A stretch of DNA of 64,000 nt. Source: Prosthecobacter sp. SYSU 5D2 (GTDB taxonomy: Bacteria > Verrucomicrobiota > Verrucomicrobiia > Verrucomicrobiales > Verrucomicrobiaceae). Position numbers and translations under genes: made by a program. Under the pieces are notes generated by a model. It searched no databases and was not told the origin of the DNA. It saw nothing but the letters and a program-made list of their open reading frames with translations. This document shows positions 32,949 through 62,014 of this stretch, one piece after another (position 1 is the stretch's first letter; the number at the start of each line of letters is the position of its first letter). The DNA is taken from the NCBI RefSeq assembly GCF_039655865.1, contig NZ_JBBYXL010000005.1:62001-126000 (forward strand). The letters are read 5' to 3'.

Positions 32949-34937
32949 CTACGGGATCGTGACCGGAGCCACGGCCCCAGCGTGACTGGGCAGCTCGGAA
33001 AGACTGCCCTCAATGAACTGGTGGTGCCAGAGCTGCGTGGCCACCACGGCCGCCAGCCCCATCTCCACCGACAGACGCGGCAGCGAGCCGTCCCGCATCT
33101 CCTTGTACGCCTTGCGCCAGTGGCGCACTTCCTTGGCATCAAAGTAGCCTGTGCGTTTGAGCGAGTCTTCACTGAGAAGCTGGGCCACGAAGGGCGGTTC
33201 AGGATCCATGTGAAAGCTGTCCAGCGGAGCGCGAAAAATGACCTTGCCGCGTTTGTAAATGGATTCCGGCAGCCAGCGCTCCGCCAGCAGACGGAGAAGA
33301 TGTTTGTCGCGGAAGCCCTTCAGCTTCCAGTCCGGGTGCAGCTGGGCGCAGAAATCAAAAACGTCTTCATCCAGGAAGGGATACCGCACTTCCACGGAAG
33401 AGTTCATCGCCACGCGATCACCTTTGCCCTGAAGCAGGTGGCCAGCCAGGGTCACGCGGCCCGCCACCCAGATGCCACGGTTCAGTGGCGACCATTTTTT
33501 GGCACGGTCCAGGTTCATGCCCAGCCCTGCCCAGGGATCGGTGGACTCCCGGAGCTGATGCATTGATTCGGAGTAAAACCGCAGTTTGGAAAGTCCCAGA
33601 AGCCCATAGGAATCAATCCAGGCATTCGGCCCGCCCACATTTGCTTCTGTACGCTGGCGGAACCATTTGGGATATTGGGGCACCTTGCTCACCCGCAGGA
33701 AAGCGCGACGGGCATAATCGCTCACACGCAGCCCTGGCATCATGTCCAGATAACCCGCCAGTTTCGCCGCCTTGTACCAGGGATAGCCCACCAGCCATTC
33801 ATCCGCGCCTTCGCCGGTCAGCACCACTTTTTGGCCACAGGCGTGCACTTTTTGGGCGAGCTGTAAAAGAGCCGCGCAGGAGGTGTCAATGACGGGTGCC
33901 TCAGCTGCGTTGATCAGCTTTGGATAAGTGACCAAAGCGTCTTCATTTCTGAATTCCTGCACCACAGGCGGCGGTGCGCCAATGAACTTGGCCACCATGC
34001 TGGCGGCATCCAGTTCATCCAGCTCCGGGTGGTCCACCTGGACGGTGTAGGTGGAGATGGACTTACCCCGCAGGTGGCAGGCCAGGGCCAGGATCATGCT
34101 GGAATCCACCCCACCGGAGAGATAAGAGCCCACCGGCACATCCGCCCGCAGGCGTTTGTCCACGGCTCGGAGCATCACGGCCTCAAATTCATCCACCAGC
34201 TTTTTTTGGTCCGGCTGCGGTTCTTCCTGCCCGGCATCCGGGAAGTCCATTTCCCAGTATTTCCGCTCCCGGACACCGGCATTGCCTCCATGGGCATGAC
34301 CAGGCAGCACTTCCAAAAAATGCGCTGGAGGCAGCATCTGCACGCCTTCAAAACAGGTGATCGGTCCTGGCAGCGCGGAAAACGTAAACACGTGGTCAAT
34401 CCCCCGGCGGTCCGGGCGGGCGGGCACCATTCCAGAGGCCAGCAGGCTCTTGATCTCTGAGGCAAACAGCAGCCAGTCTCCCTGGCGGGACCAGTAAAGC
34501 GGAGCAATGCCAAAACGGTCACGGCCTAACATTAACTTCTGCTGTTTTTCATCCCATAAAGCGATGGCGAACTGGCCGCGCAAGCGCGCAAACATGCCCT
34601 CCTGGCTCTCCTCCCACATGTGCGGAATGATCTCCGTATCACAGTGTGTGACCAGACTGTGCCCGCGAGACATCAGGTCCGCCCGCTTTTCCACATGGTC
34701 GAAAAGTTCTCCATTGAAGACCACAGAGACATTCCGGTCTTCGTTGTGCATCGGCTGCTGGCCGTCTGCTAAACCGACAATGCTCAGCCGCCGGGAAGCC
34801 ATGGCCAGACCCGGGCGCATGAAGAAACCCTCTTCATCGGGTCCCCGATGATAAAGCGCCCGGGACATTCGTTGAATGACCTCATCGGGCACGGTGCGCC
34901 TGCCCGCCATATCCATCACGCCTGCAATACCACACAT
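32949..34937 (-). CDS. asnB: Asparagine synthetase (glutamine-hydrolysing), AsnB type
   Basis: A 662-residue class II glutamine amidotransferase with synthetase domain. The N-terminal nucleophile is Cys2 (MCGIAGVMD), followed by RGPDEEGFF and ALYHRG motifs. The synthetase part has the PP-loop SGGVDSSMILALACHL and ends with VRYPFLDEDVFDFCAQL and GKVIFRAPLDSF. It could make asparagine or, as AsnB paralogues do in secondary metabolism and surface-polymer clusters, amidate another carboxylate. Its start faces the PKS gene across a 300-bp AT-rich intergenic region with dyad symmetry, so co-regulation with the lipid cluster is possible. That is inference only. Confidence 0.88.
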   Translation of the reverse strand: MCGIAGVMDMAGRRTVPDEVIQRMSRALYHRGPDEEGFFMRPGLAMASRRLSIVGLADGQQPMHNEDRNVSVVFNGELFDHVEKRADLMSRGHSLVTHCDTEIIPHMWEESQEGMFARLRGQFAIALWDEKQQKLMLGRDRFGIAPLYWSRQGDWLLFASEIKSLLASGMVPARPDRRGIDHVFTFSALPGPITCFEGVQMLPPAHFLEVLPGHAHGGNAGVRERKYWEMDFPDAGQEEPQPDQKKLVDEFEAVMLRAVDKRLRADVPVGSYLSGGVDSSMILALACHLRGKSISTYTVQVDHPELDELDAASMVAKFIGAPPPVVQEFRNEDALVTYPKLINAAEAPVIDTSCAALLQLAQKVHACGQKVVLTGEGADEWLVGYPWYKAAKLAGYLDMMPGLRVSDYARRAFLRVSKVPQYPKWFRQRTEANVGGPNAWIDSYGLLGLSKLRFYSESMHQLRESTDPWAGLGMNLDRAKKWSPLNRGIWVAGRVTLAGHLLQGKGDRVAMNSSVEVRYPFLDEDVFDFCAQLHPDWKLKGFRDKHLLRLLAERWLPESIYKRGKVIFRAPLDSFHMDPEPPFVAQLLSEDSLKRTGYFDAKEVRHWRKAYKEMRDGSLPRLSVEMGLAAVVATQLWHHQFIEGSLSELPSHAGAVAPVTIP

Positions 34938-35011
34938 ATTTTTTTGGGTCCGTTCTGCGGTTAAAGATTTTCCTATTGATGTATCGGTTTGGACACGTTT
35001 TATGCGTTTCT

Positions 35012-35041
35012 TATAGCGAAATTCATCTGAAATCCGCTATA
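35012..35041. promoter_or_regulatory. Inverted repeat, candidate operator 1
   Basis: Seven-base arms TATAGCG and CGCTATA separated by 16 nt, located 75 bp upstream of asnB and about 200 bp upstream of the PKS start. The arms and AT-rich setting suit a dimeric regulator site. No regulator gene is adjacent. Confidence 0.45.
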
Positions 35042-35169
35042 TTATCTCTTCGTCCGCCGTGAAAAGCACTCAGCAGACGGCCAAATATGTCCATGGATTC
35101 GTTTATATTGCCCATTCCACGAATAGCTTTTGCTGGAACATTAAAGCGCATTTCGGGCAGCTCGCACGA

Positions 35170-35187
35170 TTGAATTATTTAATTCAA
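35170..35187. promoter_or_regulatory. Perfect palindrome, candidate operator 2 for the PKS operon
   Basis: The 18-bp sequence TTGAATTATTTAATTCAA has 8-bp arms and a 2-bp centre. It is near the expected promoter position for the PKS gene (start 35238). Such a site often binds a TetR- or MarR-type dimer, which is inferred. Confidence 0.5.
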
Positions 35188-35237
35188 ACCGCGTCCCTTT
35201 AAATCTCCCCTCTTATCTACCCCCACGATTGAACTGC

Positions 35238-38200
35238 ATGCATAAAGAAGGAATTGCCATCATTGGTATCGGTTGCCGTTTCCCCGGCGGAATCAACGAC
35301 GTCGAAGCATTTTGGAAACTGTTGGCGGAGGGAAGGGATGCAGTATGCGAAGTTCCGGCTGACCGATGGAACATTGAACGGTTCTATGATGCGGAGCCGG
35401 GACTGGCTGGCAAATCCATCGCCAAACGCGGCGGATTTTTGGATAACATTGACCAGTATGATCCGCAGTTCTTCGGCATCTCCCCCCGCGAGGCCCCGTA
35501 TGTGGACCCGCAGCAGCGGCTGGTTTTGGAGACAGCCTGGGAGGCCATCGAAGATGCTGGCATTGTGCTGGATCTGGAAAAGGGCACCGACATCGGGGTG
35601 TATGTGGGCGTTTCCCACACGGACTACCAGGTCATCCAGGGCACGCCATTTGATTCCGCCGGCATCGGCGCGCACTCCTCCACCGGCAGCGCGCATTCCA
35701 TCGCGGCTAACCGCATTTCGTACTCTCTGAACCTGACCGGCCCCAGCGTGGCCATGGACACCGCCTGCTCCTCTGCACTGACGGCAGTACATGCGGCCTG
35801 TGAATACATCTGGACCGGGCGCGGCCATACGGCCCTGGCCGGCGGCGTGACGGTGATGATCACCCCAGGCGGCTTCATCGGCTTTTCCCAGGCTTCCATG
35901 CTGTCCCCGGACGGCATGTGCAAAGCCTTCGATGCGGATGCCAATGGCTTCGTGCGTGCCGAAGGTGCAGGCATGGTCATGCTGAAAAGCCTGTCCAAAG
36001 CGATTGCAGATGGCGACCCGATCCAGGGCGTCATTCTCGGCACCTCCACCAACCAGGACGGCCACACCAACGGCATCTCTTTGCCGAGCCCCGAAGCCCA
36101 GGCGCGTCTCGTCAAGGACGCCTGCATTGATGCTGGCATCAGCCCTAGCGAGGTCGGATATATCGAAGCCCACGGCACCGGTACCGCCGTCGGTGATCCG
36201 ATTGAGGCCACCGCCCTTTCCGAGGCCCTGTGCGCCGACCGCGCGGAGGATCTGCCTTTGGCCATGGGATCCGTCAAAACCAACCTCGGCCACATGGAAA
36301 CCGCCGCCGGCGTGGCCGGTCTGGTCAAGGCGCTTCTGGTACTGAAGCACGGCAAGATCCCGCCGAGCCTGCACTACAAGACGCCGAATCCGCACATTGA
36401 TTTTAAGGCGCTGAAACTGCGCATCCCGACGGAGATGGAAGACTTCCCGGAAAGCTATGCCGTGCGCATGGCCGGGGTGAACTCCTTCGGTTTTGGCGGA
36501 GCCAATTCCCACGTCATCGTCGCGGAAGCGCCTAACAAACCGCATGTCAAGCTGCCTGCCTCCGCCTTCGAGCGCCCGTGGCCGCTGGTGCTTTCCGCCC
36601 GCTCCGAAGAGGCGCTGAAGGCCACTGCTTTCCGCCTCTCCACGTGGCTGGAAGATCATGAAAAATCCAACGGCACCTCACCGGTGCTGCCGGACCTTTG
36701 TTATACCCTCGGCGCACGCCGCAACCATCATCAGCATCGCCTGACGATGGTTGCCCGCACGTCTCATGAGGCCATTGCCACATTGAATGCCTTTGGTGTC
36801 GGGCAGGAAGTTCCCAGCGTGCGCAGCGGCTTCTCCCCGCGCCGTGAAAAACCCGCCCGTGTGGGCTTCGTCATGAGCGGCCAGGGCCCCCAGTGGTGGG
36901 GCATGGGCCGCGAGCTGATGAAACATGAGCCGGTCTTCCGCAATGCCATGGAAACCTGCGCCGAGGCGCTGAAGCCTTGGACAAAATTCTCGCTGCTGGA
37001 GGAACTTGCCCGCGATGAAAAGGATTCGCGGATGAGCCAGACCGAGGTGGGCCAGCCAGCCATTTTCGCCATGCAGGTTTCCCTTTCCGAGCTATGGAAA
37101 TCCTGGGGTGTGCAGCCGGACGCCATCGTCGGCCACAGTGTGGGTGAAATCGCCGCCGCCTGTGTGGCCGGTGTGCTCAGCCTGGAAGAGGGTGCCAAAG
37201 TGATTGCCCTGCGTGCGCGTTTCATGAACGAATGCGCCCGTGGAGCCGGCACGATGCTGGCCGTGGGTCTGGATGAAGACGCCGCCCTCGCCGCCATCGC
37301 CAAGCATGACCGTGTGGTCAGCATCGCCGCCTTCAACGGCCCGCGTTCCCTGACACTCTCCGGTCCAAAACCCGCCCTCGAAGCTATCCAGGCTGACCTG
37401 GAGGCGGACAATGTTTTCGCCCGCTTTGTGCGTGTGGACCACCCCTTCCATCATGCTTACATGCAGCCTGCTGCAGATGAGCTGGTGGCCGCGCTGAAAG
37501 ACCTGAAACCACGTGAAGAAACGGTGCCGTTTTTCAGCACTGTCACCGGGACCAAAATCTCCGGTACCGAATGCGATGCCGGCCACTGGGGCCGTGGCAT
37601 CCGCCAGGCGGTGATGTTTGCACCCGCCGTGGATGCACTGGCTGATTTCGGTGTGGATGTGTGGCTGGAAATCACCGCGCACCCTGCCCTTTCCCTCTCC
37701 ATTCAGGAATGCCTCGGCGCCCGCGGCATGAAGGCCCCCGTCGTGGCCTCCGCACGTCGTGACCGCGAGCATGAAGCCATGCTGGAAGCGGCACTGGAGC
37801 TTCACCGCGCCTGCGTGGACCTGGACTTCAAGGGCATGACGCCCTCCCGCCATCAGCTTTCCCTGCCCACCTATGCCTGGGACAAAGCCCGCTGGTGGAA
37901 TGAATCTCCTGATTGGCGCGAAGGCCGTCTGGGTGCCGGAGGCAAAGGCCTGCTGGACATCCGCCTGCCACGCGCCACCCCGACGTGGATCGCCCGCCTG
38001 GATAACCGCCACATGGCCTTCCTGAAAGATCACAAAGTGGACAGCCACGTCATTTTCCCTGGGGCTGGTTTTGTGGAGCTCATCCTGGAAGCCGGCGCGC
38101 AGTACTTTGAAGGCCGTCCGTTCGCCGTTGAAGACTTTGAAATTCGCAAGCCTCTCATCCTCACGGAAAACCCGTCCGGCGTGGTGCTGGAAGTGACGTA

Positions 38201-41200
38201 TGAGCCGAACGAGCGCACCTTCACCATCCAAAGCAAATTTGACCAAGGCGCTGCCTGGTCTGTGCACGTGGTCGGGTCCATGCGCGGCGAGCGCACCGAG
38301 TCCAATTTCAATTCCACCACCTGGGAAGGCGCCACCGACGGCCTCACCTCACTGGACGTGACGGACTTCTATCAGCACATGAGCGACCTCGGTCTGCGCT
38401 ATGGCGATGAGTTCCGCCCGGTGCGCGAGCTTTGGGCCGCTGGTGGCAAGGCCGCCGGGAAAGTCTCGCTATCGGAAAACATCGCGCATCGTGCCGGTGA
38501 ATACTGCCTGCATCCGGTGCTGCTGGATGGTGCCCTGCACACCTTCTCCGCCGGATCCAAAACGGTGGAAGACCGCAAGGCCAAGATGAAGCTGCCTGTG
38601 CGCTTTGGCCGCATCCTCTTCCTCAAATCCCCCGGTGCCGTCACCCATGTGCAGGCCAAGGTGGTGCAGTTCAATGAGGAGTTCATCGAAGGCAACATCG
38701 GTCTCTATGACGCTTCCGGCCAGCCCTGCGTCCTGGTGGACGGATTCCGCGCCATCAGCATGGCCGCTGCCCGCCGCGCCGGAACCACCGGCACTCGCGA
38801 TCTCCTTTATCACGTGGACTGGGAGCGCACCGCCACAGCAGGCACTCCTGCCCCGCTGGCTCCCGTGCCGCTGGAGGAGCTTAAACAGGCTGCGCAGAAG
38901 ACATTGGAAGAAGTCATCTCCGTCCGTGGCAAGGCCAAACTGGAGGCCACCATGGCCGCCGAAGACGACCTCGCCGCCGCCCAGATTGCCCAGGGTCTCA
39001 GCCAGATGGCTGAAGGGCTGAAGGACAAGGATGTCTGGACCGTGGAGACCCTCAAGGTCGCTGAGCCGATGCGCCGCGTTTACAAACATCTGGTTAACGA
39101 TCTGGCCAATCGCGGCCTGCTGGAAGCCAAAGGCGACGGCCACGTGCCGACCGCCAAGTTTGCCGCAGCCGCCGAATCCGCCACAGCGGAACTGAACAAG
39201 TTCATCTCGCTGCATCCCGGCCACCTGCCGGAAGGCATGCTCTGCACCATCACCTGCGCCGAACTTGGCCCGATTCTTCGGGGCGAAAAAGACGCGGTCC
39301 AGGTGCTCTTTGGCGGCTCCAACAGCGACCTGCTGGACCAGTTTTATGGTGACGGCCTGCTTTCCAGCCACTGGATGGCTGCCATCACCAGCGCGGTGAA
39401 TGAAGCCGCCCGCAAGCTGCCGGAAGGGCGCGGTCTGCGCATCCTGGAAGTGGGTGCCGGTACCGCCGGTCTCAGCTCCTACCTGCTGCCGCTGCTGCCA
39501 CGCGGCCTGCATTCTTATACGTTTACTGACGTCTCCGCCGGGTTCTTCTCCCTGGCCGGACAGAAGCTGGCGGCTTTCCCGGAAGTCGAATACAAGGTCT
39601 TCAACCTGGAACAATCCGGCCTCAACCAGGGCTTCGACGCAGACAGCTACGACCTCGTCATCGGCACCAACGTCATCCATGCCGTGGCCGATGTGCGCGC
39701 CACATTGGGCTATATTCACGAACTGCTCAAACCCGGCGGCAGCCTCGTCTTCATGGACGTGGCCACACCTCAGCTCTGGACGGAATCCGTCTTCGGCCTC
39801 ACCAGCGGCTGGTGGCATCTGACCGACCGCGAGTTGCGCCCGGATCAGCCCCTCATGCAGCGCCCGCAGTGGGAGTCTGCCATGAAAGAAGCGGGCTTCG
39901 CCGAAACGACCTCCATCCCCGGTCTTACCGGACCGCGCGGCGGGGAAGGCCAGATCGGCCTCTTTGGCCGCAAAGCCTGGACGGAAGCCGTTTCCGCTCC
40001 GGCGGCCGCCGAACCAACGATTGAACAAACACCCGCCCAGTCCTGGCTCATTTTTGCCGACAATGGCGGCCTCGGCGACAAGCTCGCTGCCCAGCTCAGC
40101 AGCAGCGGGACGCGCGTACGCATCGCCCGTCGTGGCGCCAAGTATGCGGTCAAGGGCGATGAATACACCCTGCGTGCCGATACGCCGGAAGACTGGATGA
40201 ACCTGGTCACGTCCTATGCAGACGATGCACCGCCGGACCGCATGACCTACCTTTGGTCCCTGGATGAACCGGCCGGCAAAGGCGAAGGCGACGCCGCCCT
40301 CATGGGCATTGACGCGCTTCTGCACTTGACGCAGGCCATCGAGAACACCACGCCGGCGGCCAAGCTGCGCATGGACCTCATCACCCGCGGTGCCCAGCCT
40401 GCGGGCCAGCGCATGGGCCTGACCAACGTCGCCCAGGCACCATCCATCGGTGTCTTCCGCGTGATCCTCAGCGAGCATCCTAACTTCGCCTGCCGTGGCC
40501 TGGACCTTCCGCCGGAAAATGCCGATGCGGATATCGCCATCCTTTGGCGCGAGCTGCATGAGGAGCACGGTGAGCGCGAGATCGCCATCCGTGGCGAAGC
40601 CCGGTATGTGCAGCGCATCAAGCGCGGCCTGCCCGTGCAGGAAACCACGCTGGACCGCAACATCCCCCTACGCCTGGAATCCCGCGAACGCGGCATGCTG
40701 GACACGCTGAAGCTGACCGCATTCTCCATGCCCGTCTGTGGTGACGGTGAAGTGCTCATCGAAGTGAAAGCCGCCGGCATGAACTTCCGCGACGTGCTCA
40801 AAGCCCTCGCCCTTTATCCGGCGGAAACACCCGATGCCCGCATCTTTGGTGACGAAGTGGGCGGTATCGTGGTCGCCGCTGGCAAGGACATCAAACACGT
40901 CGCCGTCGGTGACCGTGTCTTTGGTTTGGCCGTCTATGGCCTGTCCACCCACACCCTCGCCCGTGGTGGCGATGTGGTGAAGATTCCGGAAGGACTGTCC
41001 TTTGAAGATGCGGCCACCATTCCTGTGGTCTTCATGACCTCCTGGCACGCTCTGAACAATGTGGCCCGCATGCGCAAGGGCGAGAAGGTCCTCATCCACG
41101 CCGGAGCCGGTGGTGTCGGCATGTCCGCCATCCAGATCGCCCTGCATCTGGGTTGCGAAGTCATCGCCACCGCAGGCAGTGCCTCCAAGCGCACCCTGCT

Positions 41201-42947
41201 GAAGACTATGGGTGTGAAACACGTTGTTGATTCCCGCCGCGCCGACTTTGCCGACGCCGTCATGGAACTCACCAACCGCAAGGGTGTGGATGTGGTGCTC
41301 AATGCCCTCGCCGCTGAAGCCATCCCGATGGGCCTTTCCTGCCTGTCCGAGTTTGGCCGTTTCATCGAGATCGGCAAACGCGACATTTATTCCAACTCGC
41401 GCATTCCTCTGTGGCACTTGCGCAAGAACGCCTCCTTCCACGTCATCGCCATGGATGCCGTCTTTGGCGGAGACGAGGAACTGACACGCAATTTGTTAGG
41501 CGAAGTCGTGGAGCTGGTGGATAAAGGCGCTCTGCGTCCTCTGCCCTTCCGCGCTTATCCGGCCAGCCGTGTGGATGCCGCCTTCCGCCTCATGGCGGCT
41601 GGCAAGCACATCGGCAAAGTGGTGGTCACTTTTGCAGACGCCTTTATCAACCGGCGCGGCGAAGCTCCGCTGCCAGGCTTTGAAGTCAAAGCGGACGGCA
41701 CCTACCTCATCACCGGCGGTTTTGGCGGCTTCGGCCGTGTGCTGTCGGAGTGGCTGGTGGATTGCGGCGCACGCAACCTGGTTCTCGCCAGCCGCAGCGG
41801 TGCCTCTACGCCGGAAGCCAAAGATTTCTTGAAGTCCCTGGAAGCCAGAGGCGTCAACACGCAGATCGTCAAAGCAGACTCCGGCGAACCGGCGGACGTG
41901 ACGCGCATGCTTCAGGAAATCGAAGCCGCTGGTGTGCCGCTGAAAGGTGTCTTCCACCTGGCCATGGTCATTGATGATGCGCCAATGGGCGTGCTGAACC
42001 GTGAGCGCATGCGCACCGTTCTGGCCCCGAAAGCGCTCGGTGCCTGGATGCTGCATGAAGGCACGCTGGACCAGAACCTGGACTGCTTTGTCATGTTCTC
42101 CTCCATCTCCAGTGTCTTCGGCAATCCGGCCCAGAGCAACTACTCCGGTGCCAATGCCTTCCTGGATTCCCTGGCCCATCACCGCCGTGCGCTGGGCCTG
42201 CCCGCCCTGACCATCAACTGGGGCGTGCTGGGTGGCGAAGGTTACGTGGCCCGCAATGAAAAAGTGGCCGAGTTCCTGGCACGCCAGGGCACCTCCGCCA
42301 TCACTCCTGGCGAGGTCGTCTCGCTTCTGGAAACCTTCCTCAATGCTGGCTCCGCCCAGGTGGCCTCCATCCGCGTGGACTGGGCCAAATGGCGCCAGTC
42401 CTTCCGCGGTCTGCAGGAAAATCCGCTGCTGGAGCACATCTTCGCCTCCGGTGTGGAAAGCGCCGAATCCGGCGGCATGACCGGCGACTGGCGGGCCAAA
42501 ATTGACGCCGCTTCGGCGGATGATCGCGCGGGCATCATCGCCCAGGCGCTGCGGGAAGTCGTTGGCTCCGTGCTCCGCGTCAAAGCGGACAGCCTGCGCG
42601 ATGACCAGCCGCTGACGGATCTCGGGCTCGATTCCCTCATGGGCGTGGAGATTGAAAACCTCATCGAAAGCACCATCGGCGTGGCCCTGCCACCGACCAG
42701 CCTCATGCGTGCCCGCACCATCGGCCAGCTTGCCGCCCTCATCGGCGAGCATCTGGGCGGCGGCTCTTCCACAGGTGCAGCCAAGCCTGCGATTGCTCCG
42801 GCCGTTGTCGAGGCCCCCACCTCCGTGGACGAAGTGGATCTGGACGCCATCTCCGATGACGACATCGCCAGCCTGCTGGATGATGTGACAGCGGCTGAGG
42901 AAACCCCGGCTCCCGCTGCCAAGGCCGCACGCAAAGCCGGTGCCTGA
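35238..42947 (+). CDS. Highly reducing type I polyketide synthase (KS-AT-DH-cMT-ER-KR-ACP)
   Basis: A 2,569-residue multidomain synthase from ATG 35238 (a TTG at 35229 is alternative). Key residues: KS Cys177 (DTACSS) with EAHGTGT and KTNLGHMETAA; AT Ser634 (GHSVGE) with HPFHHAYM, nearer to the malonyl than the methylmalonyl motif; DH His932 and Asp1097 (HPVLLDGALHTF); C-methyltransferase SAM motif EVGAGTAGLSS at about 1404; ER Rossmann motif GAGGVGMSAIQI at about 1955; KR ITGGFGGFGR at about 2159 with Tyr2302; ACP Ser2466 (LGLDSLMGVEI). It iteratively makes a reduced, alpha-methylated acyl chain. There is no thioesterase; the chain stays on the ACP until transferred. The C-terminus ends with an acidic DLDAISDDDIASLLDD helix, possibly for docking. 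Confidence 0.95.
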   Translation: MHKEGIAIIGIGCRFPGGINDVEAFWKLLAEGRDAVCEVPADRWNIERFYDAEPGLAGKSIAKRGGFLDNIDQYDPQFFGISPREAPYVDPQQRLVLETAWEAIEDAGIVLDLEKGTDIGVYVGVSHTDYQVIQGTPFDSAGIGAHSSTGSAHSIAANRISYSLNLTGPSVAMDTACSSALTAVHAACEYIWTGRGHTALAGGVTVMITPGGFIGFSQASMLSPDGMCKAFDADANGFVRAEGAGMVMLKSLSKAIADGDPIQGVILGTSTNQDGHTNGISLPSPEAQARLVKDACIDAGISPSEVGYIEAHGTGTAVGDPIEATALSEALCADRAEDLPLAMGSVKTNLGHMETAAGVAGLVKALLVLKHGKIPPSLHYKTPNPHIDFKALKLRIPTEMEDFPESYAVRMAGVNSFGFGGANSHVIVAEAPNKPHVKLPASAFERPWPLVLSARSEEALKATAFRLSTWLEDHEKSNGTSPVLPDLCYTLGARRNHHQHRLTMVARTSHEAIATLNAFGVGQEVPSVRSGFSPRREKPARVGFVMSGQGPQWWGMGRELMKHEPVFRNAMETCAEALKPWTKFSLLEELARDEKDSRMSQTEVGQPAIFAMQVSLSELWKSWGVQPDAIVGHSVGEIAAACVAGVLSLEEGAKVIALRARFMNECARGAGTMLAVGLDEDAALAAIAKHDRVVSIAAFNGPRSLTLSGPKPALEAIQADLEADNVFARFVRVDHPFHHAYMQPAADELVAALKDLKPREETVPFFSTVTGTKISGTECDAGHWGRGIRQAVMFAPAVDALADFGVDVWLEITAHPALSLSIQECLGARGMKAPVVASARRDREHEAMLEAALELHRACVDLDFKGMTPSRHQLSLPTYAWDKARWWNESPDWREGRLGAGGKGLLDIRLPRATPTWIARLDNRHMAFLKDHKVDSHVIFPGAGFVELILEAGAQYFEGRPFAVEDFEIRKPLILTENPSGVVLEVTYEPNERTFTIQSKFDQGAAWSVHVVGSMRGERTESNFNSTTWEGATDGLTSLDVTDFYQHMSDLGLRYGDEFRPVRELWAAGGKAAGKVSLSENIAHRAGEYCLHPVLLDGALHTFSAGSKTVEDRKAKMKLPVRFGRILFLKSPGAVTHVQAKVVQFNEEFIEGNIGLYDASGQPCVLVDGFRAISMAAARRAGTTGTRDLLYHVDWERTATAGTPAPLAPVPLEELKQAAQKTLEEVISVRGKAKLEATMAAEDDLAAAQIAQGLSQMAEGLKDKDVWTVETLKVAEPMRRVYKHLVNDLANRGLLEAKGDGHVPTAKFAAAAESATAELNKFISLHPGHLPEGMLCTITCAELGPILRGEKDAVQVLFGGSNSDLLDQFYGDGLLSSHWMAAITSAVNEAARKLPEGRGLRILEVGAGTAGLSSYLLPLLPRGLHSYTFTDVSAGFFSLAGQKLAAFPEVEYKVFNLEQSGLNQGFDADSYDLVIGTNVIHAVADVRATLGYIHELLKPGGSLVFMDVATPQLWTESVFGLTSGWWHLTDRELRPDQPLMQRPQWESAMKEAGFAETTSIPGLTGPRGGEGQIGLFGRKAWTEAVSAPAAAEPTIEQTPAQSWLIFADNGGLGDKLAAQLSSSGTRVRIARRGAKYAVKGDEYTLRADTPEDWMNLVTSYADDAPPDRMTYLWSLDEPAGKGEGDAALMGIDALLHLTQAIENTTPAAKLRMDLITRGAQPAGQRMGLTNVAQAPSIGVFRVILSEHPNFACRGLDLPPENADADIAILWRELHEEHGEREIAIRGEARYVQRIKRGLPVQETTLDRNIPLRLESRERGMLDTLKLTAFSMPVCGDGEVLIEVKAAGMNFRDVLKALALYPAETPDARIFGDEVGGIVVAAGKDIKHVAVGDRVFGLAVYGLSTHTLARGGDVVKIPEGLSFEDAATIPVVFMTSWHALNNVARMRKGEKVLIHAGAGGVGMSAIQIALHLGCEVIATAGSASKRTLLKTMGVKHVVDSRRADFADAVMELTNRKGVDVVLNALAAEAIPMGLSCLSEFGRFIEIGKRDIYSNSRIPLWHLRKNASFHVIAMDAVFGGDEELTRNLLGEVVELVDKGALRPLPFRAYPASRVDAAFRLMAAGKHIGKVVVTFADAFINRRGEAPLPGFEVKADGTYLITGGFGGFGRVLSEWLVDCGARNLVLASRSGASTPEAKDFLKSLEARGVNTQIVKADSGEPADVTRMLQEIEAAGVPLKGVFHLAMVIDDAPMGVLNRERMRTVLAPKALGAWMLHEGTLDQNLDCFVMFSSISSVFGNPAQSNYSGANAFLDSLAHHRRALGLPALTINWGVLGGEGYVARNEKVAEFLARQGTSAITPGEVVSLLETFLNAGSAQVASIRVDWAKWRQSFRGLQENPLLEHIFASGVESAESGGMTGDWRAKIDAASADDRAGIIAQALREVVGSVLRVKADSLRDDQPLTDLGLDSLMGVEIENLIESTIGVALPPTSLMRARTIGQLAALIGEHLGGGSSTGAAKPAIAPAVVEAPTSVDEVDLDAISDDDIASLLDDVTAAEETPAPAAKAARKAGA

Positions 42948-42964
42948 GCCGATGTCATTGAAAA

Positions 42965-44317
42965 ATGTCCCAAGACCTCCGAGCCAACCTCAAACAGTGG
43001 CTGGCCAGCGGCGAAATCCGCCTCCAGCCACTGAGCCTGCCCCAGCGTGAGCTGTGGGAAACCTCCCCCATCGCCCCCGGCGACATCGGCAATCACATCT
43101 GTGCTTTCATCGAGGTGAAAGGCAACATCACCGCCGAGGACTGCCGTGAGGCCATCCGCTTGGTGGTGGAGCGCCAGGAGGTCCTGCGGCTGTCTTTTCT
43201 CCCTGGCAAGGAGCAGCCCTTCCAGATGATCCGCAAGACCGGCACCGTCGTGATGAATTATCGTGAGCTGACGCCGGAACAGTGCTCCAAAGAAGGTTTG
43301 GAAGAGGTGATGAAGGAGATCTTCAACCAGCCCTTCGACATGCTGCGCGGCCCCCTTTACCGGGTGGAGATGCTTCAGCGTGGACCGGGGGAACTGGTGC
43401 TCGTATTTGCCATCCACCATGCCATTGCCGATGGCTGGACCCTGGGCGTCTTTGTCCAAGAGCTGGCCGGGGCGTATATCCAGAACAAGATGAACGGCGG
43501 GGGCTCCCTGCCGGAGGTGGAGATGTCTTATACCGCCTGGGCCGCTGCGGAACGCGCCACCTGGCAGCCGGCGGAGATTGAATCCAGAACCGTATTCTGG
43601 CAAAAGCATCTCGCTGACACCGTCCGCCTCTGGGACCGTCCTGCCGATCCCAGCCAGCGGGCCGGCAAGCTGACCTATTGGGCCGCCAGCATCCCGCCAG
43701 AACTGGTGCGTGAAATCCGTGCCGTGGCCAAGACTACCGGCACCACTCTTTTTAACACCTTGCTCACCGCCTTTCAGGCCACCCTGGCCCAGTGGACCGG
43801 CAAGACGGACATCGTCGTCGGTACGCCCGTGGCCAACCGCACACGCCAGCAGGCCAAGGAAACCATGGGCTACTTTGCCGGAGTCGTGCCGCTGCGCGGG
43901 AAAGTGGATGCCTCCCAGACCTTTGCTGCCGCCGCCCGTGCCGTACAGGAGACCAGCATGGACTGCTTCGCCCAGGCCATGCCCTTTGCCGAGCTGGCCA
44001 AGGCGCTCGGCATCTGTCAAGAGGAAGGCCACAACCCCATTTTTGATGTCCGTTTTGCCCTGCAAAATCATCCGGTGCCGGACATCACCCTGCCCAGCCT
44101 GTCCTTTAAACTGCGCATGCGCTCCACCGGCACCGCCCGCTTTGATCTCGCCTGTGAAATCACCGAGGATGGGGATGAATTTGAGATCGTCTGGCTTTAC
44201 CGCCCCTCTCTTTTCCTGCCGGAAGATGTGCAGGAATTGAACCGGCGATACCAGACCCTGCTGGAAAACGTATCCCGTTCACCCCATAGTCCGCTTTCCG
44301 CCGCCATGGCCTGTTGA
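42965..44317 (+). CDS. Stand-alone condensation-domain acyltransferase
   Basis: A 450-residue protein that is a single condensation (C) domain, like PapA5 or NRPS C domains. The catalytic motif is HHAIADGWT (His151, His152, Asp156). Other C-domain landmarks are LSLPQRELWETSP, VVERQEVLRLSF, NTLLTAFQATLAQWTGKTDI and VVGTPVANRTRQQA. It lacks adenylation and carrier domains. It lies 17 bp after the PKS stop, so it is a strong candidate to take the chain from the PKS ACP and form an ester or amide with an unknown acceptor, acting as the release step (inference). It is translationally coupled to the desaturase gene (TGATG). Confidence 0.9.
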   Translation: MSQDLRANLKQWLASGEIRLQPLSLPQRELWETSPIAPGDIGNHICAFIEVKGNITAEDCREAIRLVVERQEVLRLSFLPGKEQPFQMIRKTGTVVMNYRELTPEQCSKEGLEEVMKEIFNQPFDMLRGPLYRVEMLQRGPGELVLVFAIHHAIADGWTLGVFVQELAGAYIQNKMNGGGSLPEVEMSYTAWAAAERATWQPAEIESRTVFWQKHLADTVRLWDRPADPSQRAGKLTYWAASIPPELVREIRAVAKTTGTTLFNTLLTAFQATLAQWTGKTDIVVGTPVANRTRQQAKETMGYFAGVVPLRGKVDASQTFAAAARAVQETSMDCFAQAMPFAELAKALGICQEEGHNPIFDVRFALQNHPVPDITLPSLSFKLRMRSTGTARFDLACEITEDGDEFEIVWLYRPSLFLPEDVQELNRRYQTLLENVSRSPHSPLSAAMAC

Positions 44318-45345
44318 TGATGAATGCCGCCAACCCATCCTCCGACCCTCTGGACATGAATGTCAAAGGTGACCTTGCCGATCCGCATGAGCCGCATTGG
44401 ATCAGCCGCTCCGCTTTTCAAATTTTGGTTTTTATCCTGGCTGGCATCCATGCAGTACTCTTTGCCGCGCTTTATTATGAAAATTGGTGGCTGGCTGTGC
44501 CAGTGATCCTGCTGGCCGGTCATTTTATGCATGGCGTCTTGATCGGTTTTCACGAAGCATCCCATGGCCTGCTGAGAAAAAACCGCACGTTCAATGAATT
44601 TGACGGCGTCCTGATCGGCACACTCGGCCTCTTCAGCTTTACCCTGTACCGGGTCGTGCATCAAAAACATCACATGTATCTGGCCACAGAAAAAGATGAA
44701 GAGCTATGGCCCTTCAATGACCCCAGCAAGCCCCGCTGGTTCCGCTGCACGGCGGCGTTTCTGGAGCTGACGGTGAGCCTCTTCTCCACCCCCTATTTGT
44801 TTTTGCGCTGCTTTTTTGCCAAGGACACCACTATCCGCAGCCCGCGTGTGCGCAAGCGCATCTGGAAGGAACTCATCGGCACGGTGGTCTTCTGGACCCT
44901 TGTCGTGAGTATTGTTGCCTGGTTCGACCTGTGGAAGTACTTCCTCTGCATGTACCTGATCCCGGCCATGCTGGCGGCGAATCTGCAAAGCTGGCGCAAA
45001 TATGTGGAGCACGTAGGGTTGCGCGGTACTAGTGCCACCGGGGCCACCCGCAGCATCGTCAGCGAAGGCCTGGCCGGCCGCCTGCTGGCCTTTAGCCTGC
45101 TGCATGAGCCTTTCCATGGTCTGCACCACCGCCATGCCGGATGGCACCATTATGAACTCCCGGCTCACGCTCCCGAGCTTAATCCCCAAACCCCGGAAGA
45201 AACCACTCCGTATCCGAATTATCGCTCAGCGGTGATGGATCTCCTGCGTTGTCTTGCAGACCCCAAAGTGGGTCCCCAATGGTATCGCAATGAAACATCG
45301 GCCCAGCCATCCCCCTCCCCTGCTGCGAATACCCTGACGGCCTAA
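44317..45345 (+). CDS. Membrane fatty-acid desaturase
   Basis: A 342-residue integral membrane protein of the desaturase/hydroxylase superfamily. Three His boxes are visible: HEASH, HQKHH and HGLHHRHAGWHH. Several hydrophobic helices occur (for example AFQILVFILAGIHAVLF, LIGTLGLFSF). It uses a di-iron site, oxygen and an electron donor to desaturate or hydroxylate acyl chains at the membrane. The start overlaps the C-domain stop (ATG 44317 within TGATG). Its presence suggests the polyketide lipid, or its partner acyl chain, is oxidised after transfer. Carotenoid- or sphingolipid-type substrates are alternatives. Confidence 0.88.
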   Translation: MMNAANPSSDPLDMNVKGDLADPHEPHWISRSAFQILVFILAGIHAVLFAALYYENWWLAVPVILLAGHFMHGVLIGFHEASHGLLRKNRTFNEFDGVLIGTLGLFSFTLYRVVHQKHHMYLATEKDEELWPFNDPSKPRWFRCTAAFLELTVSLFSTPYLFLRCFFAKDTTIRSPRVRKRIWKELIGTVVFWTLVVSIVAWFDLWKYFLCMYLIPAMLAANLQSWRKYVEHVGLRGTSATGATRSIVSEGLAGRLLAFSLLHEPFHGLHHRHAGWHHYELPAHAPELNPQTPEETTPYPNYRSAVMDLLRCLADPKVGPQWYRNETSAQPSPSPAANTLTA

Positions 45346-45382
45346 TCTGGACATAACTGTCAGTAACCGTCGTTATACACGC

Positions 45383-46138
45383 ATGAATTTCCTCCCCCGT
45401 CCCGCCGCCCCAAACCCGGCCTCCGATACGCCGGTCTATGAGGCGCTGGATCTAAAAAAAGAATACGACGGCGGCCAGGTCCAGGCCCTGCGCGGAGTGA
45501 GTTTTAATGTCAATGCGGGTGAGTTTGTGGCCATCACCGGCCCCAGCGGCTGTGGGAAAAGTACCCTGCTCCAGATGCTCGGGGCTCTGGACCGCCCCTC
45601 TTCAGGCACCCTGAATTACCGGGGGAAATCCCTGCCGAATGATGTGGAGCCTTCCGCCTACCGAGCCCACCAAATCGGCTTCATCTTCCAGGCCTTTCAT
45701 CTCCTGCCAACGTGCACCGCTGTCGAAAATGTGCAGATCCCCATGTTCGAAGGAAAGCTGGGCATGAAACAGCGCCGCGAGCGTGCGGTGGAATTGCTGG
45801 AGCAGGTCGGCCTTGGCCACCGGCTGGATCATTATCCCGGCAAGCTCTCCGGCGGTGAAAGGCAGCGCGTAGCCATCGCCCGCAGCCTGGCCAATGCTCC
45901 CTCCGTCCTTCTCGCGGACGAGCCCACCGGCAATCTGGACAGCACCAATGCCACCCATGTGCTGGACCTCCTGGTGAAGCTGCATGAGGTGCAAAAGATG
46001 ACCCTCATCATGGTCACCCATGACATGGAAATCGCCCGCATGGCCGGACGCACCCTCCTCATGAAGGATGGTCACATCATCTCCAACGGCCTCAACAAGA
46101 GCGCCTCATCCCCCAATTCCGAAGCTGCTGCCGTATGA
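45383..46138 (+). CDS. ABC transporter ATPase, LolD/MacB type
   Basis: A 251-residue ATPase. Walker A is GPSGCGKSTLLQMLGALDRP, the Q-loop lies in IGFIFQAFHLLPTCTAVENV, the signature is LSGGERQRVAIARSLA, Walker B is VLLADEPTGNLDS, and the H-loop lies in IMVTHDMEIARM. The 'ADEPTGNLD' stretch and Q-loop are typical of the LolD/MacB/FtsE branch that pairs with FtsX-type permeases. Its stop overlaps the permease start by 4 bp (ATGA), so the two form one transporter. Given the cluster, the substrate is probably the lipid product. Confidence 0.92.
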   Translation: MNFLPRPAAPNPASDTPVYEALDLKKEYDGGQVQALRGVSFNVNAGEFVAITGPSGCGKSTLLQMLGALDRPSSGTLNYRGKSLPNDVEPSAYRAHQIGFIFQAFHLLPTCTAVENVQIPMFEGKLGMKQRRERAVELLEQVGLGHRLDHYPGKLSGGERQRVAIARSLANAPSVLLADEPTGNLDSTNATHVLDLLVKLHEVQKMTLIMVTHDMEIARMAGRTLLMKDGHIISNGLNKSASSPNSEAAAV

Positions 46139-47250
46139 CTTTCTTTTCCATTGTCGTACGCGGCCTATTGCGCCGCCCAGTGCGCACCGCCCTCACCCTG
46201 GTGGGCATCTCCCTGGGCATCGCCGCCGTGGTTGCCCTCGTGGGCCTCTCGGAAGGTTTTGAAAAAAGCTGGCAGACAGGCCTCAAGGTGCGCGGCACCG
46301 ACATCGTTGTCAGCAACATGGGCGGTGCCATGGTGCCCAAGCCCTTCAGCCCCCTCATCCGCGACCGTGTGGCCAAGATCCCCCAGGTGGCTGAGACCTG
46401 CATGCTCATGGTGGAGCTGATGAGTGTGGAGGAGGCGGAAATGATCATGGTCTCCGCCCGCGAATGGGGCGGCTTCACCTGGGACAATCTGGAGATCCTT
46501 TCCGGACGGCTGCCCAACGATGCCACCGAACAGGCCGCCGTCCTGGGGCAGACCGCCGCAGAAGTCTTGAAGAAAAAAGTCGGCGATACCCTCCAGATCG
46601 AAGCCACCGAGCTCACCGTCGTTGGTATCGTCAATGGCGGCGCACTTGTCGAAGACGGCTCCATCATCCTGGCCCTGCCCGTCCTTCAGACCATCATGTC
46701 CAGCGAGGACAAGATCAACGTCATTGATGTCCGCGCCGTGCCCGGCCTCACTGAGGAACAGTTGGATGACCTGAGCAAACGCATCACCGATGCCATCCCA
46801 GAAATCCGCGCCGTCTCCGTGGCCCACCACTTCAACAACAGCCAGGGTTTCAAAATGATCCGCGCCATGAGCTGGGGCACCTCCCTCCTGGCCGTGCTGG
46901 TGGGTGTGCTCGGTGTGATGAACACCATGCTAATGACCGTTTTTGAACGGAAGCAGGAAATCTGCGTGCTCCTGGCCATCGGCTGGAAGCGCGGCCGCAT
47001 CGTCCGCATGGTGCTGCTGGAATCTGCCATCCTCGGCTTTGCGGGAGGCGTCTGTGGCATCCTTTTAGGCGTTATCGGGGTCAAGGCCATGCAGTCCACG
47101 CCAGCCCTCCGCGGCCTCCTGGAGGCAGACGTGGGTGCTCCCCTGCTCCTGACCGCCCTGCTCATCTCCGTGCTAGTTGGCGTGCTCAGCGGCCTCTACC
47201 CAGCGTGGCGCAGCTCCCGCCTTAACCCGGCCGCGGCTCTTAACGGCTGA
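46135..47250 (+). CDS. FtsX/MacB-type ABC permease
   Basis: A 371-residue inner-membrane protein. TM1 is near residues 14-36 (PVRTALTLVGISLGIAAVVAL). A MacB-like periplasmic domain follows (about 40-245), then three C-terminal helices (TSLLAVLVGVLGVMNTMLMT, ILGFAGGVCGILLGVIGVKA, LLTALLISVLVGVLSGLYPA). This is the mechanotransmission architecture of MacB and LolC/E. Such permeases extract lipids or drugs from the inner membrane rather than pump across it. It is coupled to the ATPase gene and followed 54 bp later by a LolA-like protein gene. Confidence 0.9.
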   Translation: MTFFSIVVRGLLRRPVRTALTLVGISLGIAAVVALVGLSEGFEKSWQTGLKVRGTDIVVSNMGGAMVPKPFSPLIRDRVAKIPQVAETCMLMVELMSVEEAEMIMVSAREWGGFTWDNLEILSGRLPNDATEQAAVLGQTAAEVLKKKVGDTLQIEATELTVVGIVNGGALVEDGSIILALPVLQTIMSSEDKINVIDVRAVPGLTEEQLDDLSKRITDAIPEIRAVSVAHHFNNSQGFKMIRAMSWGTSLLAVLVGVLGVMNTMLMTVFERKQEICVLLAIGWKRGRIVRMVLLESAILGFAGGVCGILLGVIGVKAMQSTPALRGLLEADVGAPLLLTALLISVLVGVLSGLYPAWRSSRLNPAAALNG

Positions 47251-47304
47251 ACCGGCCACGCATTCTTTGCGTACAAATTGCCGTCCCCATACGAATCCTT
47301 TGTC

Positions 47305-48105
47305 ATGAAACGCCGCTCCGCCCTTTTTACCCCCTTGGCCGCAGCCCTGACTCTGCTCGCGTCCTTTGGCCCTTCCCTTCACGCCGCTGACGGTCCTGCC
47401 CTCACCGCCGCAGACCTGGCCTCGCGCATGAATGCCATCCGCGTGGACGGCACCTCCTTTGTGCGCCTGCGCATGGAGATCAATGGCGGTGGCTCCATCC
47501 AGATCCAGGCCAAACAACGCATGACCCAAGGTGGCTCAGATGTGGTGTACCAGATCCTCTTCCCCAAGGAACGCAAAGGTGAATCCGTCCTGCTGCGCAA
47601 ACCCTCCTCCGGTGCTGCCACAGGCACCGTTTACCTTCCGCCCGATACACTCAAGCCCCTCACCGCCGCTGAGATGAAAAACGGTCTCTTCGGCAGCGAC
47701 CTCACCCATGAGGATGTCATGGAAAACTTCTTCGCCTGGAGCCAGCAGACCTTGGTCGGCACCGAGGACATTGGCCGCATCTCCTGCCAGATCCTTGAGT
47801 CCAAACCCTCCGTCTCCGACCGCTCCAGCTATGCCTCTGTCCGCACCTGGATTGATCCCCGGCGCATGGTGCCAATGCGCGTGGAAAAGAACAATGCCTC
47901 CGGCTCCGTGCTCGTCCGCATTGAGACGCTAAGCGTGGCCAAGGACGATCTTGGCCGCGAGGTTCCTTCCAGTGTCCACATTGCCCGCGCCGGCATCACT
48001 GGCAAAGGCACCACGCTGGACGGCTCCCGCATCAAGCATGGCGTGACATTGACCGATGCGGACTTCACTCCAGACGCTTTAAAGTCGCTATCGGCTCCCA
48101 AATAA
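47305..48105 (+). CDS. LolA-like outer-membrane lipoprotein-sorting protein
   Basis: A 266-residue exported protein from ATG 47305. The signal peptide is about residues 1-28 (RRSALFTPLAAALTLLASFG). The mature part follows the LolA/LolB-like beta-sandwich family: RLRMEINGGGSIQIQAKQRM, YQILFPKERKGESVLLRKPS, ILESKPSVSD, RTWIDPRRMVPMRVEKNN and VHIARAG. Members carry lipid-linked cargo across the periplasm. Together with the LolD/MacB-type ABC pair it forms a likely export line for the cluster's lipid. Cargo identity is inference. The in-frame ATG at 47278 is a poor alternative start. Confidence 0.85.
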   Translation: MKRRSALFTPLAAALTLLASFGPSLHAADGPALTAADLASRMNAIRVDGTSFVRLRMEINGGGSIQIQAKQRMTQGGSDVVYQILFPKERKGESVLLRKPSSGAATGTVYLPPDTLKPLTAAEMKNGLFGSDLTHEDVMENFFAWSQQTLVGTEDIGRISCQILESKPSVSDRSSYASVRTWIDPRRMVPMRVEKNNASGSVLVRIETLSVAKDDLGREVPSSVHIARAGITGKGTTLDGSRIKHGVTLTDADFTPDALKSLSAPK

Positions 48106-48109
48106 ACGA

Positions 48110-48709
48110 ATGGACCTGTTTACCCCGGATCCCGGGCAGAATCTTTTGCCCTGCGATGGCATCGTCAACTACCACGGGCCCGTCTTCAGCCCGGAGGAAG
48201 CCCAGGAACTGAATGCTGCACTGATGCAAAACATCATGTGGCAAAACGATGAAGTCGTCCTCTTCGGCAAGCGCATCATCACCTCCCGAAAAGTGGCCTG
48301 GCATGCTGACAACGGCCTAACTTATTCTTATTCTGGAAGCATCAAACAGGCTCATCCCTGGACCCCGGCACTGATCCAGATCAAGGACACCATCCAGCAA
48401 ATCAGCGGAGCCGTTTACAACGCCTGCCTGCTCAACCTCTACCACGATGGCAGTGAAGGCATGGGCTGGCACAGTGACGATGAAAAATCCATTGTTCCCG
48501 CCTCAGCCATCGCCTCCGTCAGTTTTGGTGCGGAACGCAAATTTTCCTTCAAGCACAAACGCAAGCCTGAGGCATTGTCCCTCCTGCTTGAAGACGGCAG
48601 CCTGCTGGTCATGAAAGGCAGCACTCAGACTCACTGGTTGCACAGCCTGCCCAAATCCAAAAAGGTGACCCAACCAAGGATCAACCTGACCTTTCGGAGC
48701 ATGCTCTGA
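48110..48709 (+). CDS. AlkB-like Fe(II)/2-oxoglutarate dioxygenase
   Basis: A 199-residue AlkB-family dioxygenase. The iron ligands are in EGMGWHSDDEKS (His and Asp of HxD) and in THWLHSLPKSKK (distal His). The 2-oxoglutarate-binding Arg lies in TQPRINLTFRSM. NLYHDGSEGMGWH is the nucleotide-recognition-lid region typical of AlkB. It repairs alkylated bases in DNA or RNA by oxidative demethylation. It starts only 4 bp after the LolA-like stop, so it may be read in the same transcript, but a role in the lipid cluster is unlikely. Confidence 0.88.
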   Translation: MDLFTPDPGQNLLPCDGIVNYHGPVFSPEEAQELNAALMQNIMWQNDEVVLFGKRIITSRKVAWHADNGLTYSYSGSIKQAHPWTPALIQIKDTIQQISGAVYNACLLNLYHDGSEGMGWHSDDEKSIVPASAIASVSFGAERKFSFKHKRKPEALSLLLEDGSLLVMKGSTQTHWLHSLPKSKKVTQPRINLTFRSML

Positions 48710-62012: not shown

Positions 62013-62014
62013 GG

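Follow-up and report, generated by a model that had tools for sequence, protein, structure and literature searches.

What is made, and where is it sent, by a group of six adjacent genes in the genome of Prosthecobacter sp. SYSU 5D2, a member of the Verrucomicrobiota? The genes lie in a 64,000 nucleotide stretch of contig NZ_JBBYXL010000005.1 (positions 62,001 to 126,000), which we call the window; the genome which holds it, of 5.87 Mb, has the handle G000. They code for a polyketide synthase (PKS), a condensation enzyme (Cond), a membrane desaturase-family enzyme, an ABC ATPase, an FtsX-type permease and a LolA-like protein. The genes probably form a dedicated operon for a polyketide lipid directed to the outer membrane, with enzymes to build, offload and modify it and a system to export it; the lipid perhaps carries a carboxamide. 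The starting point is what can be read directly: gene families, intact motifs, a conserved gene order and co-occurrence among genomes. From these we infer which reactions take place, what the carrier transports and what two associated enzymes, an AsnB-type amidotransferase and an amidase, do. To our knowledge, the outer-membrane lipids of Verrucomicrobiota have been little studied. For one such lipid, the locus supplies candidate enzymes together with a dedicated carrier, so that the structure, function and transport of a new lipid can be tested within a single operon.

Organization and conservation of the cassette

All six open reading frames (ORFs) are on the + strand, and the ORF list and Pfam give the domains just described. 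The gap between PKS and Cond is 17 bp, Cond and desaturase share a TGATG junction, a gap of 37 bp precedes the ABC gene, ABC and FtsX overlap by 4 bp, and 54 bp precede LolA, as read from the sequence. A first-pass annotation of this DNA had described a PKS with a C-methyltransferase, a condensation protein, a desaturase, an FtsX-type ABC transporter and a LolA-like carrier in one direction with tight spacing; ORF calls, Pfam and junctions all agree with it. A 2OG-Fe(II)/AlkB-like gene (48110-48709) is found 4 bp past LolA. Since tblastn found no match to it in the other loci listed, we have rejected it as a seventh gene of the operon.

We have compared 30 distinct loci, including the window, recruited by PKS or Cond similarity and with a PKS of at least 61% identity. 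L046 to L051 and L068, whose PKS or Cond is distant, were fetched and fall outside the 30; L063 is the same contig as L052. A draw of 384 genomes from the class was also searched, where a carrier is a genome with a Cond ortholog of at least 45% identity. The class draws for Cond, AsnB and amidase are taken as the same 384 genomes, as they have equal size and the same listed handles; these searches score at most 3 or 4 candidates per genome, so matches could be missed. A further set of 46 genomes has 25 carriers and 21 non-carriers; its non-carriers were hand-chosen from earlier results, while the class draw was not hand-chosen. G011 and G015 were left out of this set because of PKS fragments, and G069 is not counted as a carrier, since its Cond match (32%) lies inside a longer ORF.

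In 25 of the 30 loci, the six genes have the order and direction seen in the window. Conservation of gene order in related genomes was a check set beforehand by the first-pass annotation, which took its absence as a refutation, so this result speaks for the cluster. Four of the 25 full loci (L037, L038, L039 and L042) have an additional hydrolase gene between desaturase and ABC. Some genes are interrupted: Cond in L037, ABC and FtsX in L059, and FtsX in L035, whose cassette reaches the contig end. L062 has all six genes, with LolA moved ahead of ABC, and L058 is missing ABC, FtsX and LolA at the locus. Carriers make up 16 of the 384 genomes in the class draw, and 14 of them keep the full order; the exceptions are G195, which is rearranged, and G148, without transport genes at the locus. 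A draw of 387 genomes from the phylum contains four carriers, every one already in the class draw, and no carrier outside the class. The named relatives recovered with the condensation protein are one Chthoniobacter flavus metagenome-assembled genome (MAG) and three Verrucomicrobiaceae MAGs.

The LolA-like gene follows the cassette: a relative of at least 40% identity is found in 24 of the 25 carriers against 1 of the 21 non-carriers. Weaker relatives occur in the carrier G148 (34%) and in the non-carrier G214 (29%). Pairwise distances of seven families, AsnB included, are correlated (21 values of r, from 0.71 to 0.95, with 17 to 28 rows per pair); not one of these values was reached in 500 permutations. 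Since common descent by itself can also raise correlations of this kind, we count them as supporting evidence and no more. These data bear on the idea that the PKS stands by chance beside housekeeping genes for lipoprotein sorting. ABC, FtsX and LolA families are indeed common; nevertheless, the conserved order and the co-occurrence of LolA have led us to reject a chance neighbourhood, whose probability we consider negligible.

The polyketide synthase

The PKS (35238..42947; the ORF opens at 35229 and its first ATG is at 35238) is a fully reducing type I enzyme with the Pfam domain order KS-AT-DH-cMT-ER-KR-ACP. Pfam and motifs place KS at 35247..36377, AT at 36867..37811 (GHSVG and HPFH), DH at 37965..38771 (HxxxSxxxxP, a variant of HxxxGxxxxP), the C-methyltransferase (cMT) at 39387..39902, with its S-adenosylmethionine (SAM) binding motif, ER at 40740..41627, KR at 41697..42230 and ACP at 42543..42743 (GLDSL). 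The active-site motifs, under what we take to be their usual names, are intact by eye, except for the change of Gly to Ser in DH.

The AT motifs suggest a malonyl-type domain. The best-matching ATs have GHSQGE and YASH where the window has GHSVG and HPFH. GHSQGE and YASH are motifs of methylmalonyl-type ATs. As the motifs point to malonyl-CoA, methyl branches would derive from SAM through the cMT. On its own ACP, the PKS would thus assemble a largely saturated acyl chain, with malonyl-CoA as the building block and C-methyl branches from SAM. Mycobacterial MAS is its best solved relative by sequence. The PKS stays below the cutoffs of the Pks2-type model NF041183 (1214.8 vs 2400 bits) and of model NF045894 (1340.4 vs 1740 bits), and no Mas-specific curated model is found among the best 25 of the 78 models which match it.

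Four copies in the same genus share 87-93% identity with the window PKS; three copies in Verrucomicrobiaceae MAGs share 69% and further copies in the genus 64-66%. G008 and G031 have two copies each. Its history is likely one of transfer or old duplication, judging by these sequences. More distant relatives (about 39-40% identity, 2928-2941 amino acids) are found in L046, L047 and L048 (G008:C9, G028:C45 and G001:C87). They adjoin an ORF of 788 amino acids on the opposite strand with weak similarity (22-23%) to the window permease, and the one in L046 has a C-terminal domain of thioester-reductase type (Pfam). Perhaps these loci represent a second lipid system in the genus. L049, L050 and L051 contain ORFs of PKS-NRPS type (4007-4022 amino acids; NRPS, nonribosomal peptide synthetase), which resemble fungal PKS-NRPS hybrids such as psoA. 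Pfam finds KS, AT, DH, cMT, ER, KR, two ACP/PCP, condensation and adenylation domains in the L049 protein.

Release and modification of the chain

Pfam matches no thioesterase domain in the PKS. Since the PKS shows no releasing domain and the condensation enzyme (42965..44317) is encoded 17 bp downstream, release by transfer to an amine or an alcohol is what one would naturally expect, and we propose Cond as the trans-acting release acyltransferase. It would take the chain off the ACP and join it to the acceptor. Pfam and a motif alignment show a free-standing enzyme of NRPS type with an intact HHxxxDG motif; H151, H152, D156 and G157 are invariant in 16 aligned orthologs. Such a free-standing condensation fold with HHxxxDG is also that of PapA5-type acyltransferases. 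Tyrocidine synthetase 3 is the best solved match. The 56 solved matches listed are all NRPS or PKS-linked C-type by name and include no PapA entry, an absence which does not exclude such a relationship.

The membrane enzyme (44317..45345; ORF from 44314, ATG at 44317) belongs to the desaturase family by Pfam and has three His boxes, invariant in the alignment of 18 orthologs. No solved relative was found up to E 1. It may be either a desaturase or a hydroxylase, and would desaturate or hydroxylate the product.

The ABC pair and the LolA-like carrier

The ABC pair would lift the product from the inner membrane. LolD is the best-scoring model for the ATPase (45383..46138; Pfam and equivalog models), below its equivalog cutoff (239.4 vs 307.75 bits). 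The permease (46135..47250) carries FtsX and MacB_PCD domains in Pfam, and its lolCE equivalog score of 62.6 bits is far from the cutoff of 362.45. Its predicted structure (pLDDT 81, pTM 0.63) matches a LolCDE chain in Foldseek (E 4.9e-19). Three structures have tied VIA Z scores: 5xu1_M of S. pneumoniae (Z 25.3, rmsd 5.1, 353 aligned), the LolE chain 9rlc_E (Z 24.7, rmsd 7.6, 359 aligned) and the heme exporter HrtB (Z 24.4, rmsd 3.9, 333 aligned). MacB 5gko is lower (Z 20.6, rmsd 8.2, 360 aligned).

The LolA-like protein (47305..48105; ORF from 47278, likely ATG at 47305) scores 77.3 bits with PF17131, whose cutoff is 30. By eye, it seems to carry a Sec signal and lacks a lipobox Cys. The protein is a predicted periplasmic carrier, which would shuttle the product across the periplasm. 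Its model (pLDDT 88) is closest to 4z48_A (VIA Z 26.5, rmsd 2.5, 226 aligned), 3bk5 (Z 26.0, rmsd 2.9, 228 aligned) and P. gingivalis LolA3 9tp6_B (Z 25.6, rmsd 3.0, 229 aligned), followed by 3buu (Z 21.3, rmsd 3.1, 218 aligned); LolB and LolA proper give Z 14.0 and below. LprG and LppX, lipidated proteins of LolA fold which bind the exported lipid, are weak Foldseek matches (LppX: E 1.8e-4, TMq 0.25). The modelled fold places the protein in the LolA superfamily, in the PF17131 branch. Whether carriers with a Lol fold transport lipids of this kind, as the authors of the aryl polyene and flexirubin papers propose (PMC8253772, PMC11885536), would become easier to decide if a LolA-like protein were linked to a lipid product rather than to lipoproteins.

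The permease fold, as near to HrtB and 5xu1 as to LolE, also agrees with a different product: a diffusible secondary metabolite, a signal or an antibiotic-like ester or amide, exported or sequestered by a MacB-type ABC pair and the LolA-like protein, with no envelope lipid involved. Free-standing C enzymes of NRPS type and a patchy distribution are common in secondary metabolism, and the cassette has both features (16 of the 384 genomes in the class draw). On the other hand, Pfam finds no adenylation domain in the six genes. The window contains two HlyD-type adaptors, both outside the cassette; tblastn at E 1e-3 found no match to either in any fetched locus, although remote adaptors are possible. 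The combination of a fully reducing PKS with a membrane desaturase and a LolA-like carrier suggests that the product is very hydrophobic. We consider a diffusible metabolite rather unlikely. In view of the LolA-like partner and of biosynthetic genes for a hydrophobic product, the cargo is more likely a lipid.

A separate ABC system is found in the window, apart from the cassette (59002-63487, - strand). It consists of two FtsX/MacB_PCD permeases, an ATPase and an HlyD-type adaptor.

The AsnB-type enzyme and the amidase

An AsnB-type amidotransferase gene (32949..34937, - strand; Pfam GATase_7 and Asn_synthase) is divergent from the PKS. The 300 bp between both starts (34938..35237, read from the sequence) hold a probable divergent promoter region. 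The interval of the first-pass annotation begins 1 base past the AsnB gene and thus omits it. Its remark that nothing in the window identifies the acyl acceptor overlooked both this enzyme and the amidase described below; the remark itself still applies, as neither of them identifies the acceptor.

The motifs MCG, SGGVDSS and GEGADE are present by eye. An AsnB of at least 69% identity is found in 13 of the 16 carriers of the class draw, including a partial copy at a contig end in G195, and in none of the 368 other genomes (Fisher p 1e-21); 11 of these have relatives at 34 to 38%. The 46-genome set gives 20 of 25 carriers against 0 of 21 non-carriers, where the non-carrier G043 reaches 47%. Among the misses, G021 has a partial copy at a contig edge (L036), and the PKS of G040 is divided between two contig ends; in G213, G237 and G310 no AsnB was found at this threshold.

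We assign this enzyme a place in the pathway because of its linkage to the cassette and not because of its family. Such strict linkage argues, without amounting to proof, for a role which is other than plain asparagine synthesis or linked to the cassette. AsnB-family enzymes are dependent on glutamine and ATP, and this one would most likely use both to put a carboxamide onto the product or its acceptor. Its best solved relative is the hydroxyamidotransferase 7ylz, i.e., TsnB9, which is reported to transfer a hydroxamate to trichostatic acid (PMC13418202). A fungal reducing-PKS cluster has a dedicated AsnB-type enzyme which amidates the polyketide acid and makes no asparagine (PMC13284220). Because of this precedent and the likeness to TsnB9, a carboxamide is our best guess for the head group, whether borne by the chain or by the acceptor.

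An amidase-signature gene lies near the cassette in 11 of the 30 loci as fetched, in many of them beside a TPR gene. In this genome, both are found about 16 kb ahead of the window start (L078); the amidase belongs to Pfam Amidase and has a lipobox-like LTGC by eye. It is present in 21 of the 25 carriers and in 0 of the 21 non-carriers at E 1e-80, and in 13 of the 16 carriers of the class draw against 1 of the 368 others (G063). The same three class-draw carriers have neither AsnB nor amidase. Likewise, the carriers without amidase in the 46-genome set (G040, G213, G237 and G310) also have no AsnB; G021 alone misses AsnB and has the amidase. Solved relatives include GatA, FAAH and ClbL. This lipoprotein, encoded away from the cassette in our genome, may act on the proposed amide in the envelope, and the AsnB-amidase pair offers a handle on the chemistry of the head group.

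Two other neighbours were rejected as cassette-specific. The TPR protein (cl5) is absent from the window's cassette and has relatives elsewhere in the genome at 51, 43 and 28%, a result for this genome only. An alpha/beta-hydrolase lipoprotein (Lip52) has relatives in 41 of 49 genomes at E 1e-20, which makes it weak evidence. A second, partial cassette without a PKS match is found in G363:C13 (L072), with amidase, TPR, a desaturase fragment, ABC, FtsX, cl12 and LolA.

The lipoboxes may also be read in another way: the PKS chain could acylate a lipoprotein or lipid A, and this acylated molecule would then be the cargo of the ABC and LolA-like set. The amidase with a lipobox by eye in 11 of the 30 loci, hydrolases with the same feature in several loci, LolD as the top ATPase model (below its cutoff), the LolCDE-type fold of the permease and the LolA-superfamily fold of the carrier are all compatible with this. 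However, ABC and permease are under the LolD and LolCE equivalog cutoffs, and the six core genes include no sugar or lipid A enzyme and no small lipoprotein. We regard such a target as improbable, more so than a diffusible metabolite.

An uncharacterised protein of about 370-430 residues, cl12, is found in 6 of the 25 carriers and in 0 of the 21 non-carriers at E 1e-20. All four carriers without amidase have it. We have rejected cl12 as a methyltransferase: three members have no Pfam family below E 0.1, and the impression of a SAM motif was by eye only. No solved relative was found (best E 0.3).

A bolder version of the envelope lipid proposal, which we hold only tentatively and consider doubtful as a whole, is that of a distinct lipid class in Verrucomicrobiota. 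Its chain would be methylated by SAM and released by a C enzyme in trans, and would follow its own Lol-like route, separate from that of lipoproteins. AsnB would cap the carboxylate with an amide in the cytoplasm, and the amidase lipoprotein would uncap it at the envelope. In carriers without this pair, cl12 and the alpha/beta-hydrolase lipoprotein may do an equivalent job.

Several points weigh against a dedicated lipid operon or against parts of it. L043 has PKS and Cond only, and L045 has no LolA at the site. G148 keeps PKS, Cond, desaturase, AsnB and amidase with no ABC, FtsX or LolA at the locus; its LolA relative (34%) is found away from the cassette. Conversely, G053 has a LolA relative (42%) and G063 an amidase, in both cases without the cassette. 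The modelled permease fold does not decide among lipoprotein, lipid and small-molecule export, and ABC pairs with a fold of the LolCDE, MacB or HrtB type, together with LolA-like proteins, can move lipoproteins or small molecules. AsnB passes the TIGR01536 equivalog cutoff for asparagine synthase (402.9 vs 267.1 bits), and plain asparagine synthesis is compatible with its sequence. If Cond releases the chain as an ester or an amide, the carboxylate of the chain is no longer free to serve AsnB, and only the acceptor could bear the carboxamide. The product is a prediction from the genes, and nothing fixes the acceptor.

Comparison with known systems

The mycobacterial system consists of the iterative reducing PKS Mas, the acyltransferase PapA5 with a condensation fold, the exporters DrrABC and MmpL7, and the carrier LppX with a LolA fold. 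The window likewise has a reducing PKS, a trans acyltransferase of condensation fold, an exporter and a LolA-fold carrier. The first-pass annotation had seen here the same logic of making, releasing, modifying and exporting a lipid. This logic is sustained by the conserved order, the correlated divergence, MAS as the nearest solved relative and the LolA-superfamily fold. A literal Gram-negative version of the pathway, with a methylmalonyl-derived chain on a diol, would also account for the match with MAS and for LppX and LprG among the weak Foldseek matches of the carrier. However, Mas-type synthases are not known to have an embedded cMT, while the window PKS has one, together with malonyl-like AT motifs. 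The C enzyme is of NRPS type, the transporter belongs to a different fold class (LolCDE/MacB/HrtB) and the carrier to another branch. No second PKS is present in the conserved six, and AsnB and amidase are additional. A literal counterpart is thus very improbable; the analogy holds as logic and not as membership.

In Gram-negative bacteria, the aryl polyene, flexirubin and heterocyst clusters show parts of this scheme, so the logic of lipid synthesis with Lol or ABC export is already known there. For the aryl polyene cluster of E. coli, the authors propose that the product is placed in the outer membrane by a set of proteins which includes a LolA-like chaperone and one resembling LolB (PMC8253772). 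Both systems have an acyl chain from dedicated condensing enzymes and a LolA-like protein. The aryl polyene cluster uses separate FAS-like enzymes and an RND-family transporter, while the window codes for one reducing PKS of type I, a C enzyme predicted to act in trans and an ABC pair of FtsX type.

At the flexirubin locus, with LolA2 and LolB2, the authors suggest that the LolA-like protein may move pigment, precursors or lipoproteins of the locus (PMC11885536). A LolA-like protein encoded in a lipid operon (a pigment there) is common to both. The structures closest in fold to the window carrier are those of LolA3 type and of PF17131.

Heterocyst glycolipid export makes use of an adaptor with TolC, and the lipid has a sugar head group; the window has instead a LolA-like carrier, a trans C enzyme and an AsnB-type enzyme. 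The hgl genes and DevBCA provide an envelope lipid made by a PKS whose export needs a dedicated ABC transporter, and HglB has a thioester reductase (PMC8064123). The pairing of a PKS with an ABC exporter in a Gram-negative is thus shared, and a DevA-family model is among the matches of the window ATPase.

The fungal soa cluster contains a reducing PKS (SoaA), a hydrolase (SoaB) and an AsnB-type enzyme (SoaC), in the part of the article consulted (PMC13284220). A dedicated AsnB-family enzyme is encoded with a reducing PKS in both cases. The soa cluster is fungal, its product is a short acid released by hydrolysis, and no export set is described in that part. We have not found the gene combination of the window in the literature searched, whose coverage leaves out most subscription journals, so a prior mention is possible.

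Another ORF of the window (49324-50856, - strand) fuses a flavodoxin-fold domain to a UbiA prenyltransferase domain according to Pfam, an arrangement which looks unusual.

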